A stretch of 46,668 nucleotides of DNA. Origin: Methanobrevibacter thaueri. GTDB lineage: Archaea; Methanobacteriota; Methanobacteria; Methanobacteriales; Methanobacteriaceae. Where the stretch lies: positions 1 to 46,668 of the forward strand of contig SUTL01000005.1 in the NCBI GenBank assembly GCA_015062925.1, read 5' to 3'. A model generated the notes under the pieces. It searched no databases. It saw nothing but the letters and a program-made list of their open reading frames with translations, and was not told the origin of the DNA. Below are positions 14,248 to 22,134 of the stretch, one piece after another. The position numbers and the translations under genes are program-made. Within the stretch, counting starts at the first letter, position 1. Every line of letters starts with the position of its first letter.

Positions 14248-14673
14248 TTAATCATTTAATTTATTATTCAAATCACGAGCAACCAGATAATAGTAAATGT
14301 AAAATCCAAACCAGAAAACAGCTGCAAACACACAGGCTATTATAATCCATGTTATTATTGGTCCAATTCCCAATGTTATCGGCATCCATTTTAAATATAT
14401 TGCTATTAAAAATAATACCCCCATTCCAATAACCATCTGAAAAATAATTTGAAGCGGCAGTGCAATATCTTCTCTTTCATAGATTAATCCAGATAAAGAA
14501 AATCCCCAACCTGCAACAATACATCCGAAGAATAAATTAACAATATCAGTACCTGAAAATCTGATATTACTTGGACCTAATTGGAAGGATATTAAAACCG
14601 CAACTAATAATCCTATAAAACATCCTACAAAAGCACCTGTTGATAATCTTTTAATTAATTTTGTAATATTCAT
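14248..14673 (-). CDS. DUF3021-type four-TM membrane protein
   Basis: 141 aa polytopic protein immediately downstream of a LytTR gene, the usual DUF3021 context. Confidence 0.75.
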   Translation of the reverse strand: MNITKLIKRLSTGAFVGCFIGLLVAVLISFQLGPSNIRFSGTDIVNLFFGCIVAGWGFSLSGLIYEREDIALPLQIIFQMVIGMGVLFLIAIYLKWMPITLGIGPIITWIIIACVFAAVFWFGFYIYYYLVARDLNNKLND

Positions 14674-14695
14674 TTTTTCTAATCCTCATTTTTTT

Positions 14696-15136
14696 CTATA
14701 AATCCAATGCATTTTTAAAATCCGGCAAATATTTTCTTGAAATATTATCTTTCAAACCATTTTTAAGTTGTATGAACATCATTCCTTTTAGTGAAGGAGC
14801 GACTTTTTCGATTTTTTTCAGATTAACTATTGTTGTTTTTGATATGCGTGTGAAATCCCCTAGTAATAACTCTTCAACTTGATATAATGGTTTTTTAATT
14901 ATATACTCTTCATTTTCTGTGTATACTTTAACTTTTTTATCTTCAACTCTAAGCATGAATATTTCACTAAATTGTAAAAGTACAATATCATATTCTTTTT
15001 TAACCGCCAGCATATTACTGGATTCATCGTTTTCAAGAATTGATATTGCTTTTGTAACATTATCTGTTAGTTGAGTTGTGTGAATATCTGCATATGATTC
15101 TTCAATATCTTTTGAAACAAATAAATTTACCTTCAT
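14696..15136 (-). CDS. LytTR DNA-binding domain transcriptional regulator without receiver domain
   Basis: MLRVEDKKVKVYTENEEYIIKKPLYQVEELLLGDFTRISKTTIVNLKKIEKVAPSLKGMMFIQLKNG. Confidence 0.88.
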   Translation of the reverse strand: MKVNLFVSKDIEESYADIHTTQLTDNVTKAISILENDESSNMLAVKKEYDIVLLQFSEIFMLRVEDKKVKVYTENEEYIIKKPLYQVEELLLGDFTRISKTTIVNLKKIEKVAPSLKGMMFIQLKNGLKDNISRKYLPDFKNALDL

Positions 15137-15414
15137 GATTTTAAACTCTTAATTTTTTCCATTTCTTCTTGAACTTTACGTTCTCTGTAATTTTCATTAA
15201 AATAATTACTAACTACGAAAGTTTTTATAAAATCAATTAATACTCCAATTCCCCAGAAAAACACTGGGAATAACACCCACCAGAAAAATGGTGTGAAAAG
15301 CCAATTGATAATTGCTAAAAATACATTAACTATTATATATGATCCTAAATTCTTATAGAATTTTATTTTTATATCAACACGTTCTTCAGCTCTTGTCTGT
15401 AAATTATCAGCCAT
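15133..15414 (-). CDS. 2TM-domain protein
   Basis: 93 aa; AEERVDIKIKFYKNLGSYIIVNVFLAIINWLFTPFFWWVLFPVFFWGIGVLIDFIKTF; 4-bp overlap with LytTR start. Confidence 0.8.
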   Translation of the reverse strand: MADNLQTRAEERVDIKIKFYKNLGSYIIVNVFLAIINWLFTPFFWWVLFPVFFWGIGVLIDFIKTFVVSNYFNENYRERKVQEEMEKIKSLKS

Positions 15415-15416
15415 AT

Positions 15417-15680
15417 TTATTCCCCCATTTTTGAAATTTCCTTTTCTATCATTTTTTCTCTGTAATTTTCTATTGTGTATGCTTTGAAAAATTTATCCAG
15501 AACATTTATTCCCCAGAAAAACATTACAACTAATAATAACCAGAAACTTTTTAGAAATAATAGGCAGATAATTGCTATTATTAAGTTTACAATTATATAT
15601 TTATATAGGTTTTCTTGGAATTCTATTTTTGCATCAACTCTTTTTTCAGCTTGTTTTCTTAAATCCATGTTTTTTTCCAC
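15417..15680 (-). CDS. 2TM-domain protein (tandem paralog)
   Basis: 87 aa; AEKRVDAKIEFQENLYKYIIVNLIIAIICLLFLKSFWLLLVVMFFWGINVLDKFFKAY; clearly similar to 15133-15414. Confidence 0.8.
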   Translation of the reverse strand: MEKNMDLRKQAEKRVDAKIEFQENLYKYIIVNLIIAIICLLFLKSFWLLLVVMFFWGINVLDKFFKAYTIENYREKMIEKEISKMGE

Positions 15681-15806
15681 CTTTTTTTATAATGGTTAAT
15701 TATACATTTAATGAAATGTATATAAATGGCTATTTAGTGATATGTTTAAGATGCGAATTTCAGGTTTTAAAATGCAAAAAATAATAATTGAAATAAAAAA
15801 AAAAGT

Positions 15807-15832
15807 TAGTAGCATTTAAAGTATTGCTACTA
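15807..15832. terminator. Terminator-like hairpin spanning a stop codon
   Basis: TAGTAGCA-tttaaagtat-TGCTACTA, 8-bp arms followed on the minus strand by a T run; includes the stop of the 15816 gene. Confidence 0.5.
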
Positions 15833-16514
15833 GAAAATATAAAATTGAGGTTGTTAGGGGTACTGTTAAATTATCTATTCCACCATAACTAAATGCTTCA
15901 CATAGTGTTGCAATTGCAGAAATCATTATTATGTAGATTATGTTGAATTCTGGCATTGGAGATCCTATTGAGACGAAAACCATCCATACAAATACACTCA
16001 TTACTGTGGTTATGACAAACATGGTGAGTGATCCTTCAAGGGATTTTGTACCTCCAAATATTGTGTATTTGATTTTACCGAATTTTTGACCGATTAATGC
16101 TGCGAAACCATCTCCATATACCATTGGAACTATTGCTAGTGCAACAATCCATAGGTATTGTTTTGGATTGTTTGGTGGTGCGATTGTGGCGAATATTGCT
16201 ATTAGTACTGTCCATATTCCTGCGTAGAAGAATAGTCCTAGTGCGTGCCCTGATTCTGTTACACTGTTTTTTATTTTTATTGGTGAGTATTGTGTTAGGA
16301 AGAATAGTACTATTGTTATTGGTAGTGTTAAAAACCATACCATGACCCACGGATTTGTGAAAAATGGCATGGCGAATATCATGTTACCTACCATGATATG
16401 TAAAAATTTACGTGAAACTTCAGGCCTTGTCTTTAAAACAGTTTCAGCTATAACGAAAATGACAGCAACATAAACATATACTATAATTAATGCAAGGATA
16501 TCGGAGAATATCAT
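15816..16514 (-). CDS. Phytol/dolichol kinase-like (CTP-dependent polyprenol kinase / phosphatidate cytidylyltransferase superfamily) membrane protein
   Basis: EVSRKFLHIMVGN, VPMVYGDGFAALIGQKFGKIKYTIFGGTKSLEGSLTMF, EAFSYGGIDNLTVPLT motifs. Confidence 0.8.
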   Translation of the reverse strand: MIFSDILALIIVYVYVAVIFVIAETVLKTRPEVSRKFLHIMVGNMIFAMPFFTNPWVMVWFLTLPITIVLFFLTQYSPIKIKNSVTESGHALGLFFYAGIWTVLIAIFATIAPPNNPKQYLWIVALAIVPMVYGDGFAALIGQKFGKIKYTIFGGTKSLEGSLTMFVITTVMSVFVWMVFVSIGSPMPEFNIIYIIMISAIATLCEAFSYGGIDNLTVPLTTSILYFLVAIL

Positions 16515-17632
16515 TACTTATCATACTCCCCGTATTCACAACCGGCATTTTCAATCTTCACATGGTCAATTAAAGTACCATCTTTCTTATACAACTTAAT
16601 CTCACCCCAACCATTACCACCATTCCACAAACGATTATGTCTTTTCTGACCATCAGGAGCCTCATAATTAATTAACAACATCTCATCACGCTTACAATAA
16701 AGAACCAACTCCATTTTAGAATTCTTATTACTTGCTTTAACATTCCAAGTATGAATCTCATCACCCTCCTGGAAATCAAAATCAATTTTAACCATATTCC
16801 AGAATCTTGCAAAATTATATTCATACATAGTACCCTCATAATAAAACCCAATTAATAATTTACGAGGAATAGAAATACCAAAAGCCTTCGGCCTACCACC
16901 ACCAGCCTCAAAAGCAGAATTATTTAACTTCTTACCAGTTTTAAGACTTGTTAAATTACATGAAGAAATCCAAAGCCAAGGTGAAGTAAAATCACCACCC
17001 CAATTCTTATCAGCATAACCATAAGATTTTTCAGGAATTACCTCATACTCCTCACCATCCAACCAGATAGTACCACTATACTGAGTTTTAATTCCCTCAG
17101 CATGCCAGAACATTTCAAATGAATTTAATTTTCTAAATAAAGAATTTGCACCATAACCAACATTAAAAGTTATTTGCTTATCAATATCCAAATCCCACAT
17201 CATATCTCCAGCATCACTCATATACTCAGGATGTTCACGAGCTTCCTCCTCAGATACTCTTGCAAAACCATTCATATGAGTTTCAGTTAAACTGCAATCC
17301 CCAACACGAATATTCAATTCATCATCAGGACAATCAAAATACTTCATTGAGTAAAAATTATGAATCTGCTTTGGATTTTTACCCCATGTTCCCGCTTTAA
17401 TCATACAATAAGATGGTTTTTTACCAGCTTCACGGTTCTCAGGTAATTGTCCAAGTGTAGGTTCTTCCTCAGCTAACGCAGGATTACATACAAAATACTC
17501 AATAAAAAAAGGTCTTTCTTCACCAGTTTTCTTATTATAAGCAGTTAAAGAATGCCACCACCAATCATAACCCTTCTTAGCAAGTGGTCCTTTAAGCATA
17601 TAATAATCTCTTTTCAAATCACTCTTATTCAT
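16514..17632 (-). CDS. Tocopherol-cyclase-like / lipocalin-like (AttH/CrtC superfamily) protein
   Basis: YDWWWHSLTAYNKKTGEERPFFIEYFVCNP and YGYADKNWGGDFTSPWLWISSCNL resemble the EKNWG-type motif of tocopherol cyclase-like proteins; overlaps the kinase start by 1 nt. Confidence 0.55.
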   Translation of the reverse strand: MNKSDLKRDYYMLKGPLAKKGYDWWWHSLTAYNKKTGEERPFFIEYFVCNPALAEEEPTLGQLPENREAGKKPSYCMIKAGTWGKNPKQIHNFYSMKYFDCPDDELNIRVGDCSLTETHMNGFARVSEEEAREHPEYMSDAGDMMWDLDIDKQITFNVGYGANSLFRKLNSFEMFWHAEGIKTQYSGTIWLDGEEYEVIPEKSYGYADKNWGGDFTSPWLWISSCNLTSLKTGKKLNNSAFEAGGGRPKAFGISIPRKLLIGFYYEGTMYEYNFARFWNMVKIDFDFQEGDEIHTWNVKASNKNSKMELVLYCKRDEMLLINYEAPDGQKRHNRLWNGGNGWGEIKLYKKDGTLIDHVKIENAGCEYGEYDK

Positions 17633-17780: not shown

Positions 17781-18421
17781 TTAAACATCTGCAGGTTTTC
17801 CTTTTTCAGCCCATTTAACAGTAATATTAGTAAATGGTTGAGCAATTGCACTCCAAATCAAACTTAATATCCAATGTGAGAATATCATGATTAAAATATC
17901 AGGAATTGAAAATACTCCAATAAATGCTAATCCGATAAATATGAAATTATCGATTAATTCACTGAAAGCAATAACTCCTAAGTTTTTAACAGCAGAATAC
18001 TCTTTTCCTTCATTTACAATAGTTGTAATTCTTGCATTTTAAAGTTACCAATCAAGTAACTAATATATGATGCAATAAGGATTCTTGGAGTTTGTGTAAA
18101 TACAAATGCTAGGCTTGAATCTCCAGTATAGAAAGCTGGAGAAGGTAAGAATAATATTAAAGTTGTCATGAATACAAATAAAATATCAACACAAAGACCT
18201 AATATAATAGTTCTACGTGCAGTCCTTTCACCATAAACATCAGCAATTACATTAGTTAAAATATATACTAAAGGATAAATAAGTACTCCAGCAGGAGTTT
18301 CCATTCCTAAAAATCCAATATTAATAATTTTAACAGTTATTAAATTTGCGATGGTGAATGCCATACAGAAAAATGCAGTAATTATTACTCTTTTTTCAGT
18401 AAAGTCAAAATTCAAATCCAT
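17781..18421 (-). pseudogene. Queuosine precursor transporter-like (YhhQ/VUT family), interrupted by one frameshift
   Basis: 18014-18421 encodes MDLNFDFTEKRVIITAFFCMAFTIANLITVKI...ADVYGERTARRTIILG...SYLIGNF; the next frame continues NARITTIVNEGKEYSAVKNLGVIAFSELIDNFIFIGLAFIGVFSIPDILIMIFSHWILSLIWSAIAQPFTNITVKWAEKGKPADV*. Confidence 0.8.
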
Positions 18422-18468: not shown

Positions 18469-20292
18469 TTAATAACCAATATCTAAAATTCTTTCCTTAG
18501 TATTATGTCTCACCCATTTTTTACCCATATTTGAATAAAAAATATTAATCTTCTTTTTTGCATGTTTTTTCAAATGATAATTTAATTTAACAATTAAACT
18601 TCTCTGATCATACGAGCAAAACTTTGTTTTAACATATTTAACTCTTAACCATTTATTTGGAAGTGAAGCTCCCGGAACATCATACCTACCATAAGAATTA
18701 CTTAACAAAACCTTTTTACCATTCTTACTAATGTCTAAAATAGCAACATAATGATTATAAGCATGGAATATTAAAGCACAACCTCCTTTTTTCAATTTCT
18801 TAAGTGCCTTTGAAAATGATTTTTTAGTAAAATAACTGGCTTTAAAATGTAATTTCTTTAAAGCTTTTTTAATCCATTGACATTTAGTTCCAAAACCTGG
18901 GGTAGTGCCTGCTTTTTTTGCAAATTGTTTTTCAGGAATATAATGTCTTAAAACCTGACTGCACATACTAGCTGATGTTGGAGCACAGGTATATGGAGTA
19001 TTCTGTTTATCACGAACTTCAGAATATGTATATGATTTGCCTTTAAGTGAAACTGTTATTTTTTTAGGCCAATATCCTTTTTTGTTTTTCTTAACTATTT
19101 TTGTATTAATTGCTCTTTCTATAACATTCCATTTTTCACGTTTAATAATATGATTAAGTTTTGGTTGGGTTTTTGATTTGAAAAACGTATATTTTGATAA
19201 TTTCTTATTTAAAAATAAACAATAACTATCCCTTTTTATAACCTTTTTATATTGGGATTTTTTAAGAGTGTATTTGAAATCTCCATCAGCCATTACATAA
19301 TTACCTGACATCCAATCAATATCCGGAACACCGTTTTTAAATGGAATTTTCTTTTTTAAAGGGTTTTTAACATTTCCTTTAATTCCAATAACTATTTTTG
19401 TATTAAAAGACCCGATAATAGTTGTGGTTCCCTCATATTCTACTGTGATTGTTAAAGTTCCAGTTCCAGCATATGGTTTGAAAACTATTATTCCTTCATT
19501 ATTTGTTTTTTTAACATATATTTTATCATTAACTGTTATTTTAATTGTTTTACCTCCAACAACAGATTGTGTTGGGCTTTTTAAATATATTCTTAAATAA
19601 CCATTTGTTAATAATCGAGTGTTTCCAATGACAATAGATGTTGTTGCAGGTACAAGTAATTTAATTGTTTTTGATATGGAATTATAATACTCATCACCAG
19701 CATATATGATTTTAACTGAATAAGTTGAAGGTTTTAATGAAATTTTAAAACCTGCTCTACCATCTGAATTAGTAGTGTCTTTGTAAGTTTTACCATTTAC
19801 TGTGAATTTAATCAAAGCATCAGCTATTACTTCGTTATCCTGGTTTTTAAGATAAGCATAGAAGTAATCTCCTTTGATTAATGTGGTGTTAATAACTGTT
19901 AAATTTGTATTGATTTTTAATATATTAATGTTAAAAGTTGAATTAGCTGATGGAATCTGTGAATTACCATTATAAATAATATTTAAAAGATAATTATTAG
20001 GTTTTAGATTTAGTTTTAAATTACTTTTCCCCTGCAAATCCGTTAGAAGCGAGTAATTCTTATCATCAATATTTGCAGTTATGTTTTGATTTACTAATGG
20101 ATAGTTATTTGAATCTTTAAGATAAATATCAATTGAATCTCCAGTTTGAATTTCAGTAGTGTTAATTGTTATTTTAGGTGATGTAGTGTTTGTTAATGTA
20201 TCTGGAGAGGTTTGATTAGTGGCTGTGGCGAAGGATATTGTGAATAAAAATATTATACTACATATTACCAGTAATTTTAATATTTTATTCAT
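18469..20292 (-). CDS. Secreted Ig-like repeat protein with C-terminal C39-like cysteine peptidase domain
   Basis: Signal peptide; Ig-like repeats; YTCAPTSASMCSQVL (Cys), AYNHYVAILDI (His), SNSYGRYD. Confidence 0.75.
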   Translation of the reverse strand: MNKILKLLVICSIIFLFTISFATATNQTSPDTLTNTTSPKITINTTEIQTGDSIDIYLKDSNNYPLVNQNITANIDDKNYSLLTDLQGKSNLKLNLKPNNYLLNIIYNGNSQIPSANSTFNINILKINTNLTVINTTLIKGDYFYAYLKNQDNEVIADALIKFTVNGKTYKDTTNSDGRAGFKISLKPSTYSVKIIYAGDEYYNSISKTIKLLVPATTSIVIGNTRLLTNGYLRIYLKSPTQSVVGGKTIKITVNDKIYVKKTNNEGIIVFKPYAGTGTLTITVEYEGTTTIIGSFNTKIVIGIKGNVKNPLKKKIPFKNGVPDIDWMSGNYVMADGDFKYTLKKSQYKKVIKRDSYCLFLNKKLSKYTFFKSKTQPKLNHIIKREKWNVIERAINTKIVKKNKKGYWPKKITVSLKGKSYTYSEVRDKQNTPYTCAPTSASMCSQVLRHYIPEKQFAKKAGTTPGFGTKCQWIKKALKKLHFKASYFTKKSFSKALKKLKKGGCALIFHAYNHYVAILDISKNGKKVLLSNSYGRYDVPGASLPNKWLRVKYVKTKFCSYDQRSLIVKLNYHLKKHAKKKINIFYSNMGKKWVRHNTKERILDIGY

Positions 20293-20307: not shown

Positions 20308-22134
20308 TCATAATCCTAATCGCTGATGCGTATTATGTTTATGCCAGTTTGATCCAAAACTTGTATAGTAATTATTTATACTGTTTTTTGTTGAATTTGA
20401 TAATTTATAATTTAATTTAACAATTAAACTTTCCTCCCAATGTGAGAATTTCTTTTTCATATAACTCACTTTCAACCATTTTGTTGGAATATTATCATAA
20501 CTGCCATATGAATTACTTACCAGAACCTTTTTACCATTGCTACTGATATCTAAAATTGTCACATAATGCATATTTGCATGAAATACTAAAGCACATCCTC
20601 CTTTTTTAAGTTGATTTAAAGCTTTTTTAAAAGATGCTTTATAGTAGTATGTACATTTGAAATGATTTTTCTCCAATGCTTTTTTAATACCTGAACATGG
20701 TGTTCCTTCACTTTTTTTAGTTCCTGCGAGTTTTGCCAAGTATTTTTCACATACATAATTTTTTAAAACCTGACTGCAAACACTTCCAGATGTTGGTCCA
20801 CAAGTATATCCTGTGTTTTGAGCATCTCTTACTTCAGGATAAGTATATGATTTGCCTTTAAGTGATACTGTGATTTTACCCGGCCAATATCCATGTTTAT
20901 TTTTTTTAACAAGTTTAGCATTTATTGCTCTTTCAATTACATTCCATTTTTCACGTTTAATGATATGGTTGAGTTTAGGATGATTTTTAGTTTTGAAAAA
21001 TGTGTATTTTGTTAATTTATTATTTAAATATAAGCAATAACTATCTCTTTTTAATACTTGTTTGTATTGGGATTTTTTAAGAGTGTATTTTGCATTATTA
21101 TCCCCCATCACATAGTTTGCAGGCATTAAATCAATATCAGGTTTACCATTTTTAGAAGCAATACTTGTTTTTAAAGGGTCTTTAACATTGCCATCATAAC
21201 ATTTCATGCTTTTGGAGGAGTAATATTTACCTACTTTGGCTTTAACTTTATATGCTCCCTGTTTAACAGATGGTTTGAAAATAACTATTCCTTCAGAATT
21301 ACTTTTTTTAGATAATTTTTTATTTCCAATGAATAATCTTACTTTTTTAGAAACTGATTTGCCGTTGATTTTTAAATAAATCCTCATATAACCATTAGAG
21401 AGTAATTTGGAGTTTCCTATTTTAATTGATCTGGATGTTGTTGTGCGAACCTTGAATTTTAAAGATGATGAGAAATATTGATTATCTCCTTTATATTTAA
21501 CTTTAATTGATGTTGGAGCTTTTAATTTAATTTTAACTATTCCTTTGGAGTTGGTTTTTCTTATGTGTTTTTTACCTTTGTATTTTATGGTGATTTTTTT
21601 ATTTGAAACACTGTTTCCATTACTATCAACTAAATATATGTTTATACTTCCCTTTTTTATAATATAATTCGCTGATTCTATGATTCTTGTATTTAATTTT
21701 GATAGTATGATTTTAAAAGCTGCAAAAGTGGCATTATATTCATCATCTCCTTTAAATGAAACTGTTAATGTATAAGTTCCTTTTGCAAGATTTATTGGAA
21801 ATTTTACAATACCTTTGGAATTAGTTGTGTAAGTATAGTTTTTATTATTTAAGTTAATTGTTAAATTTTTTGATTCTAAACTTCCATTTGTAGAGTTTTT
21901 TAAATAAATTTCAAGTGTATCTTTACTTTTAAGAGTATTGGTTTGTATTGTGATGTTTGGTGTTGTTTTCTGGATTGATTGATTTGTATTTGAAATATTG
22001 TTTTCTATTTGTATTGTATTATTTTCATTTAATGGATTGAAATCAGTTGAATTATCTTCAGTTGCACTGACAGTTAGAATATTTAAAAATAATAAAAATA
22101 ACAAAATAATAAAAAATTTTGTTTTAAATTGCAT
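20308..22134 (-). CDS. Secreted Ig-like repeat protein with C-terminal C39-like cysteine peptidase domain (tandem paralog)
   Basis: Same architecture; YTCGPTSGSVCSQVL, ANMHYVTILDI, SNSYGSYD; shared LKKSQYK..LKRDSYCLYLN..NHIIKREKWNVIERAIN segment. Confidence 0.75.
   Translation of the reverse strand: MQFKTKFFIILLFLLFLNILTVSATEDNSTDFNPLNENNTIQIENNISNTNQSIQKTTPNITIQTNTLKSKDTLEIYLKNSTNGSLESKNLTINLNNKNYTYTTNSKGIVKFPINLAKGTYTLTVSFKGDDEYNATFAAFKIILSKLNTRIIESANYIIKKGSINIYLVDSNGNSVSNKKITIKYKGKKHIRKTNSKGIVKIKLKAPTSIKVKYKGDNQYFSSSLKFKVRTTTSRSIKIGNSKLLSNGYMRIYLKINGKSVSKKVRLFIGNKKLSKKSNSEGIVIFKPSVKQGAYKVKAKVGKYYSSKSMKCYDGNVKDPLKTSIASKNGKPDIDLMPANYVMGDNNAKYTLKKSQYKQVLKRDSYCLYLNNKLTKYTFFKTKNHPKLNHIIKREKWNVIERAINAKLVKKNKHGYWPGKITVSLKGKSYTYPEVRDAQNTGYTCGPTSGSVCSQVLKNYVCEKYLAKLAGTKKSEGTPCSGIKKALEKNHFKCTYYYKASFKKALNQLKKGGCALVFHANMHYVTILDISSNGKKVLVSNSYGSYDNIPTKWLKVSYMKKKFSHWEESLIVKLNYKLSNSTKNSINNYYTSFGSNWHKHNTHQRLGL

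Follow-up and report, generated by a model that had tools for sequence, protein, structure and literature searches.

Why should a gut methanogen carry, side by side, a gene resembling a plant tocopherol cyclase and a gene resembling a phytol or dolichol kinase? This question is raised by a 46,668-nucleotide stretch of Methanobrevibacter thaueri DNA (contig SUTL01000005.1; hereafter the window), on the minus strand of which the two genes lie end to end. One (16514..17632, -) encodes a 372-aa enzyme of the PF14249 (tocopherol cyclase) family, assigned to a gut-anaerobe subfamily through Pfam, AF2 modelling, Foldseek and its relatives in GTDB (hereafter the cyclase). The other (15816..16514, -) encodes a 232-aa, probably polytopic membrane protein, predicted from its motifs and from hhalign to be a divergent prenol (phytol/dolichol-like) kinase of the COG0170/CTP_transf_1 type. 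An earlier note on this DNA had placed both reading frames here, quoted two motifs from the 372-aa protein and described a one-base TAATG overlap; the frames, their strand and positions, the motifs and the overlap were all found as it had them. Within TAATG (16512..16516, -), the cyclase stop TAA (16516-16514) and the kinase start ATG (16514-16512) have base 16514 in common, the minus-strand junction reading ...GGGGAGTATGATAAGTAATG, and a putative ribosome-binding sequence, GGGGAG (16526..16531, -), is situated within the cyclase gene, 11 bases 5' of the kinase ATG. Other genomes of the window's genus likewise show overlaps of 1-4 bases (L076, L062, L077), and about 100 bases lie between the two genes in genus g23 (L087, L089, L090). 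Judged from the sequence of the junction, the two genes are probably translationally coupled and may share a transcript. The dN/dS ratios (NG86; dS above 1, so the values are rough) are 0.01-0.11 for the cyclase and 0.05-0.15 for the kinase, indicating strong purifying selection and hence that both are real genes.

The surroundings of the pair contain several other features, all on the minus strand. Directly downstream of the kinase, an apparent archaeal LytTR regulatory system (14248-15775, -) comprises two 2TM-like ORFs (15417-15680 and 15133-15414), a LytTR regulator (14696-15136) and a DUF3021 membrane protein (14248-14673). Ahead of it, at about 15746-15775, two 9-bp direct repeats, GCATTTTAA and GCATCTTAA, stand 12 bp apart, with a TATA-like TTTATATA after them; repeats of this type were seen again in most relatives aligned, and their spacing fits that of autoregulated LytTR systems (PMC6193735). 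Control of the cyclase by LytTR was considered and set aside, because the repeats precede the downstream operon and none were seen upstream of the cyclase. Beyond the cyclase, an ORF of only 135 aa (18014-18421, -) matches PF02592 (Vut_1, a putative vitamin uptake transporter); it is 94% identical, over the match, to a 213-aa protein of genome G004 (L064:3206-3847) and looks truncated or frameshifted in the window. Further along, two adjacent genes (18469-20292 and 20308-22134, -) encode repeat-rich proteins that are probably secreted and that resemble each other in a C-terminal domain carrying a TC[AG]PTS motif, possibly cysteine-peptidase-like surface proteins.

The cyclase matches PF14249 with an E-value of 1e-11 and 44.9 bits (Pfam cut-off 26.6), and all 49 aligned family members match the same model at E<=0.1. 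The match spans residues 168-368 and model positions 151-334 of 335, whereas some relatives in g23 begin at model position 69. An AF2 model built from the 49 sequences reached a pLDDT of 90.4 and a pTM of 0.90, and a Foldseek search with it against the PDB returned 13 matches at E<=0.001, every one of them a kievitone hydratase, an Fsa2-type pericyclase or a 25-phosphosteroid lyase. These matches had a probability of 1.0 and TM-scores of only 0.42-0.57. The modelled protein shows the CrtC-like two-barrel fold by this comparison, supporting its membership in the CrtC/kievitone-hydratase/tocopherol-cyclase superfamily. The cyclase call of the earlier note, for which a structural match to this superfamily had been the proposed check, thus stands, at the superfamily level as far as structure is concerned. 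Other Methanobacteriaceae genera carry a shorter PF14249 protein of about 326 aa (L081-L085), which is nearer to the Pfam model and located away from the kinase.

The motif content of the cyclase suggests how such an enzyme might work. A DKNWG-x6-WxW stretch (residues 208-221; 16970..17011, -), with the proposed general acid D208 and tryptophans W211, W219 and W221, is kept in 100 of 100 family members, and the shorter archaeal type has EKDWG-x6-WxW at the same motif. The D-x-x-W-G part aligns with DRQWG of kievitone hydratase and DRSWG of 25-phosphosteroid lyase. A second motif, DWWWH (residues 23-27; 17552..17566, -), is invariant in the 49 aligned members and pairs with GGSWW of kievitone hydratase in a weak HMMER alignment. 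In CrtC, the acid D268 and the tryptophans W110, W283 and W285 are essential by mutagenesis (PMC12402844); D208, W219, W221 and DWWWH of the window protein are placed in outline like this set, and DWWWH may be the counterpart of W110. The cyclase is therefore a predicted cofactor-free isoprenoid hydratase, cyclase or lyase that would generate a carbocation by protonating a double bond of its isoprenoid substrate. Most likely, Asp208 would protonate an isoprenoid C=C double bond independently of any cofactor, the conserved tryptophans would stabilise the resulting carbocation, and water, ring closure or elimination would quench it.

The 232-aa protein was harder to place. It has no Pfam or NCBIfam match, and PF01148 gave no match to ten kinase members up to an E-value of 10; the PF01148 matches in these genomes sit elsewhere, those read from Methanobrevibacter relatives being CarS-like proteins of 188 aa. 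However, an alignment of ten relatives displays conserved SRK..HI.VGN, YGDG.A...G...G, KS..GS and DN motifs, which are known from phytol and dolichol kinases. When two archaeal proteins that do pass PF01148 (L205/L206) served as the reference, hhalign yielded an E-value of 5.7e-6 and a probability of 85 over 110 columns, against an E-value of 0.097 and a probability of 0.6 for the CarS control. The negative control, together with the presence of the 188-aa CarS-like proteins at other loci in related genomes, argues against a CDP-archaeol synthase (CarS). A single-sequence structural model has eight helices at low confidence (pLDDT 53). Motifs and profile comparison thus support a divergent COG0170-type protein, in agreement with the kinase family proposed in the earlier note even though Pfam and NCBIfam are silent. 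In addition, 10 of 11 genomes encode a protein of DUF92, the family to which plant VTE6 belongs (no match in G000, which is 87% complete). A second kinase, for prenyl phosphates, is thus available, and these genomes may have the two kinases that prenol salvage calls for, favouring an isoprenoid role for the 232-aa protein. The 232-aa protein would then probably phosphorylate an isoprenoid alcohol.

The pair invites comparison with plants, and the earlier note had read it as a pathway shared in the manner of VTE5 and VTE1. The aromatic precursor of tocopherols is made by 4-hydroxyphenylpyruvate dioxygenase (HPPD), and no HPPD (TIGR01263) was detected in nine genomes, eight of which are at least 90% complete; the tocopherol head group is therefore not made by the known route, and we reject a plant-type tocopherol pathway. 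Tocopherols are not known from these organisms, which are strict anaerobes. The VTE5/VTE1 analogy also fails on distribution, as 11 archaeal genomes have a cyclase and no clear kinase, the bacterial loci fetched have no kinase near the cyclase, and the kinase outlives the cyclase in G004. Of the archaeal isoprenoid pathway proposed earlier, the isoprenoid-modifying role remains the best guess, while joint action as in plant VTE5 and VTE1 is not supported. We advise against extending the tocopherol label to this cyclase.

Across Methanobacteriaceae, the two genes are adjacent in about 70 of the 73 genomes that hold both, all in two genera, g1 (54 of 57) and g23 (15 of 16). In the g1 genome G017 a contig end separates the otherwise adjacent genes, and in G032 and G109, also of g1, a cyclase of a different clade (clade B, below) lies elsewhere, apart from the kinase. 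In the kinase tree, the paired proteins of g1 and g23 fall into a single clade (100/99) with the unpaired g1 kinases outside it, so the pair has been passed on as a unit, by inheritance or exchange. Co-conservation, which the earlier note had named as a test of its reading, thus holds within these two genera of Methanobacteriaceae. Elsewhere the partners come apart. The 11 archaeal genomes with a cyclase and no clear kinase are ten of genus g26 and G068, G136 of g26 having a weak kinase fragment only. In G004, the cyclase is cut down to residues 1-8, 141-179 and 354-370 (L064 6313-6563) with an intact kinase behind it, and in G098 the sequence read contains a kinase but no cyclase.

The position of the kinase in the remaining genomes bears on how the pair formed. 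In outgroup genera the kinase lies between a divergently oriented UbiA prenyltransferase gene (geranylgeranylglycerol-phosphate type) and a dTMP kinase-like gene (tmk), and in unpaired g1 members it lies between CofH and the same tmk. In the four paired g1 genomes checked (G010, G014, G036 and G028), CofH and tmk stand side by side and the kinase is missing there. The kinase would accordingly be the methanogen's own, with an ancestral place flanked on one side by tmk and on the other by CofH or a lipid prenyltransferase gene; in the window's lineage it would have left this place, or been replaced at it, and is now joined to the cyclase. The two enzymes therefore probably act on the same isoprenoid pool. 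Genome G086 differs, since a bacterial-type cyclase lies upstream of a kinase still followed by tmk (L184, a 4.2 kb contig). This arrangement suggests that the cyclase-kinase association arose twice; however, AU tests do not separate one origin from two, and constraining the G086 cyclase to group with the main archaeal clade was not rejected (p 0.46), so independent pairing in G086 was not retained as a finding.

The cyclase family itself extends far beyond the methanogens. One scan of GTDB genomes yielded at least 584 confirmed relatives; the best 80 of these comprise 53 Bacillota, 23 Bacteroidota and single members of Spirochaetota, Mycoplasmatota, Pseudomonadota and Methanobacteriota, and 61 of the same 80 name a gut compartment or a rumen-project code in their record titles. 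The bacterial proteins are 50-58% identical to that of the window. No conserved neighbour was found around the bacterial cyclase genes (about 800 flanking ORFs at 80 loci), with only generic transporter-like proteins recurring, at 12 of the 80 loci at most, which speaks against a shared bacterial operon; nor was a kinase found near the cyclase in any of the bacterial loci fetched. Spread by viruses or plasmids was likewise dismissed, as no relative was detected among viral contigs or PLSDB plasmids.

In the cyclase tree, archaeal proteins occupy three places. Clade A, on a long branch, contains 21 rows from genera g1, g23, g26 and g20; clade B, consisting of G032, G109 and G099, genomes in which cyclase and kinase stand apart, adjoins a Clostridium; and the G086 cyclase adjoins an Oscillospiraceae row. 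Because clade B and G086 fall within bacterial rows, transfer from bacteria is the simple reading for these, whereas for clade A the transfer may have run in either direction. Methanogens have thus probably acquired the cyclase from the gut-anaerobe family more than once, and the gene would be one that moves between anaerobes of the rumen and of other gut habitats.

A rival view has unsaturated fatty acids as the substrates of the family, which might for example be the missing linoleate isomerase of rumen bacteria, and has methanogens use the enzyme to detoxify dietary fatty acids. We consider this very improbable: we know of no superfamily member that acts on fatty acids, Bacteroidales and methanogens are not known to produce conjugated linoleic acid, and the pairing with a prenol kinase points to isoprenoids. 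In its favour, the superfamily protonates unactivated double bonds without a cofactor (PMC12402844), and members are present in Butyrivibrio and many other rumen bacteria, where a study of Butyrivibrio genomes found no linoleate isomerase gene (PMC6249431). The connection is a guess, and we found no literature in which linoleate isomerase and tocopherol cyclase occur together.

Two further explanations concern the relationship between the partners. COG0170-type kinases act on primary prenols and are not known to act on tertiary alcohols, which weighs against a kinase-lyase tandem. In such a tandem, an isoprenoid alcohol would first be phosphorylated by the kinase, and loss of the phosphate, catalysed by the cyclase-like enzyme, would then yield an alkene, as in the joint action of 25-hydroxysteroid kinase and 25-phosphosteroid lyase. 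A lyase-like enzyme of this kind should always be accompanied by its kinase, but the cyclase occurs without this kinase in g26, g20 and the bacterial loci, and G004 keeps the kinase without the cyclase. On the other hand, 25-phosphosteroid lyase is one of just three kinds of enzyme matched confidently in structure and has D-x-x-W-G in common with the cyclase, the methanogen kinase gene overlaps the cyclase gene, and a two-step ATP-dependent dehydration has been described (PMC8449060); even so, we judge the tandem unlikely. An opportunistic adjacency, in which a housekeeping prenol kinase gained a mobile gut enzyme gene as its upstream neighbour, descent and exchange then spread the unit, and the substrates of the two enzymes are unrelated, is a somewhat more credible alternative, although still one that we doubt. 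The independent losses of kinase and cyclase (G004, g26, g20) and the solitary bacterial homologues speak for it, and the spread of the pair may be essentially one event. It accounts less well for the disappearance of the kinase from its ancestral locus in G010, G014, G036 and G028, for the conserved overlap, and for the differently placed G086 cyclase upstream of a kinase at the ancestral kinase-tmk locus, with the caveat that AU tests do not reject one origin.

The reading that we prefer, by a little over an even chance, is that a cofactor-free, proton-initiated isoprenoid enzyme was joined in one lineage to a prenol kinase acting on the same isoprenoid pool. This pool may consist of endogenous C20 prenols or of dietary phytol and other terpenoids, and the cyclase and kinase would be non-obligate partners; a shared pathway with separable members is plausible. 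A bolder extension, which we offer tentatively and hold to be less probable than not by some distance, is a new isoprenoid pathway of gut methanogens, in which a prenol kinase and a laterally acquired terpene hydratase, cyclase or lyase convert dietary phytol or endogenous geranylgeraniol into an undescribed modified prenyl phosphate or archaeal lipid, the bacterial family being a common rumen enzyme for plant isoprenoids. What makes the locus of interest is that an abundant gut enzyme family, well conserved in hundreds of gut genomes of Bacillota, Bacteroidota, Spirochaetota and methanogens under a misleading vitamin E label, has in methanogens come to share what is probably an operon with a prenol kinase, and the pair offers a testable handle on this family through isoprenoid alcohols and their phosphates. 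Should the isoprenoid reading be right, it would bring to light the means by which rumen microbes convert plant isoprenoids or modify archaeal lipids, and the family would be a source of new cofactor-free hydratases or cyclases.

Comparison with known systems places the pair between several precedents. VTE1/SXD1 (PF14249) resembles the cyclase in the Pfam-matched region and in [DE]K[ND]WG-x6-WxW as found in L081-L085, but the N-terminal half of the window protein is unmatched and HPPD is lacking in the nine genomes. VTE5/SEC59 (COG0170) proteins resemble the kinase in the HI..GN, YGDG...G...G, KS.EGS and DN.T motifs and in being hydrophobic and probably polytopic, whereas the kinase here is too divergent for PF01148, and only profile comparison against other archaeal members identifies it. 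Another rumen methanogen, Methanobrevibacter ruminantium M1, has proteins annotated with both of these functions, mru_0432 as tocopherol cyclase and mru_0460 as dolichol kinase (PMC7772410); however, their numbers are 28 apart, so the genes are non-adjacent there, and the passage concerned mentions neither pairing nor fold nor spread. CrtC and kievitone hydratase (7a0q/7a0t) offer a fold match, to kievitone hydratase, and the acid and tryptophan arrangement of cofactor-free hydratases, but identity in the structural alignment is 13% and the locus has no carotenoid or isoflavonoid context. Finally, the 25-phosphosteroid lyase (9fzn, 9g2i, 9g4c) matches in fold, in its D-x-x-W-G stretch and in its functional coupling to a kinase, although identity is about 10% and the partner kinase here is a membrane protein of the COG0170 type. 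The two-step ATP-dependent dehydration of 25-hydroxysteroids by a kinase and a lyase (PMC8449060) is thus the nearest precedent for a kinase working with this fold.
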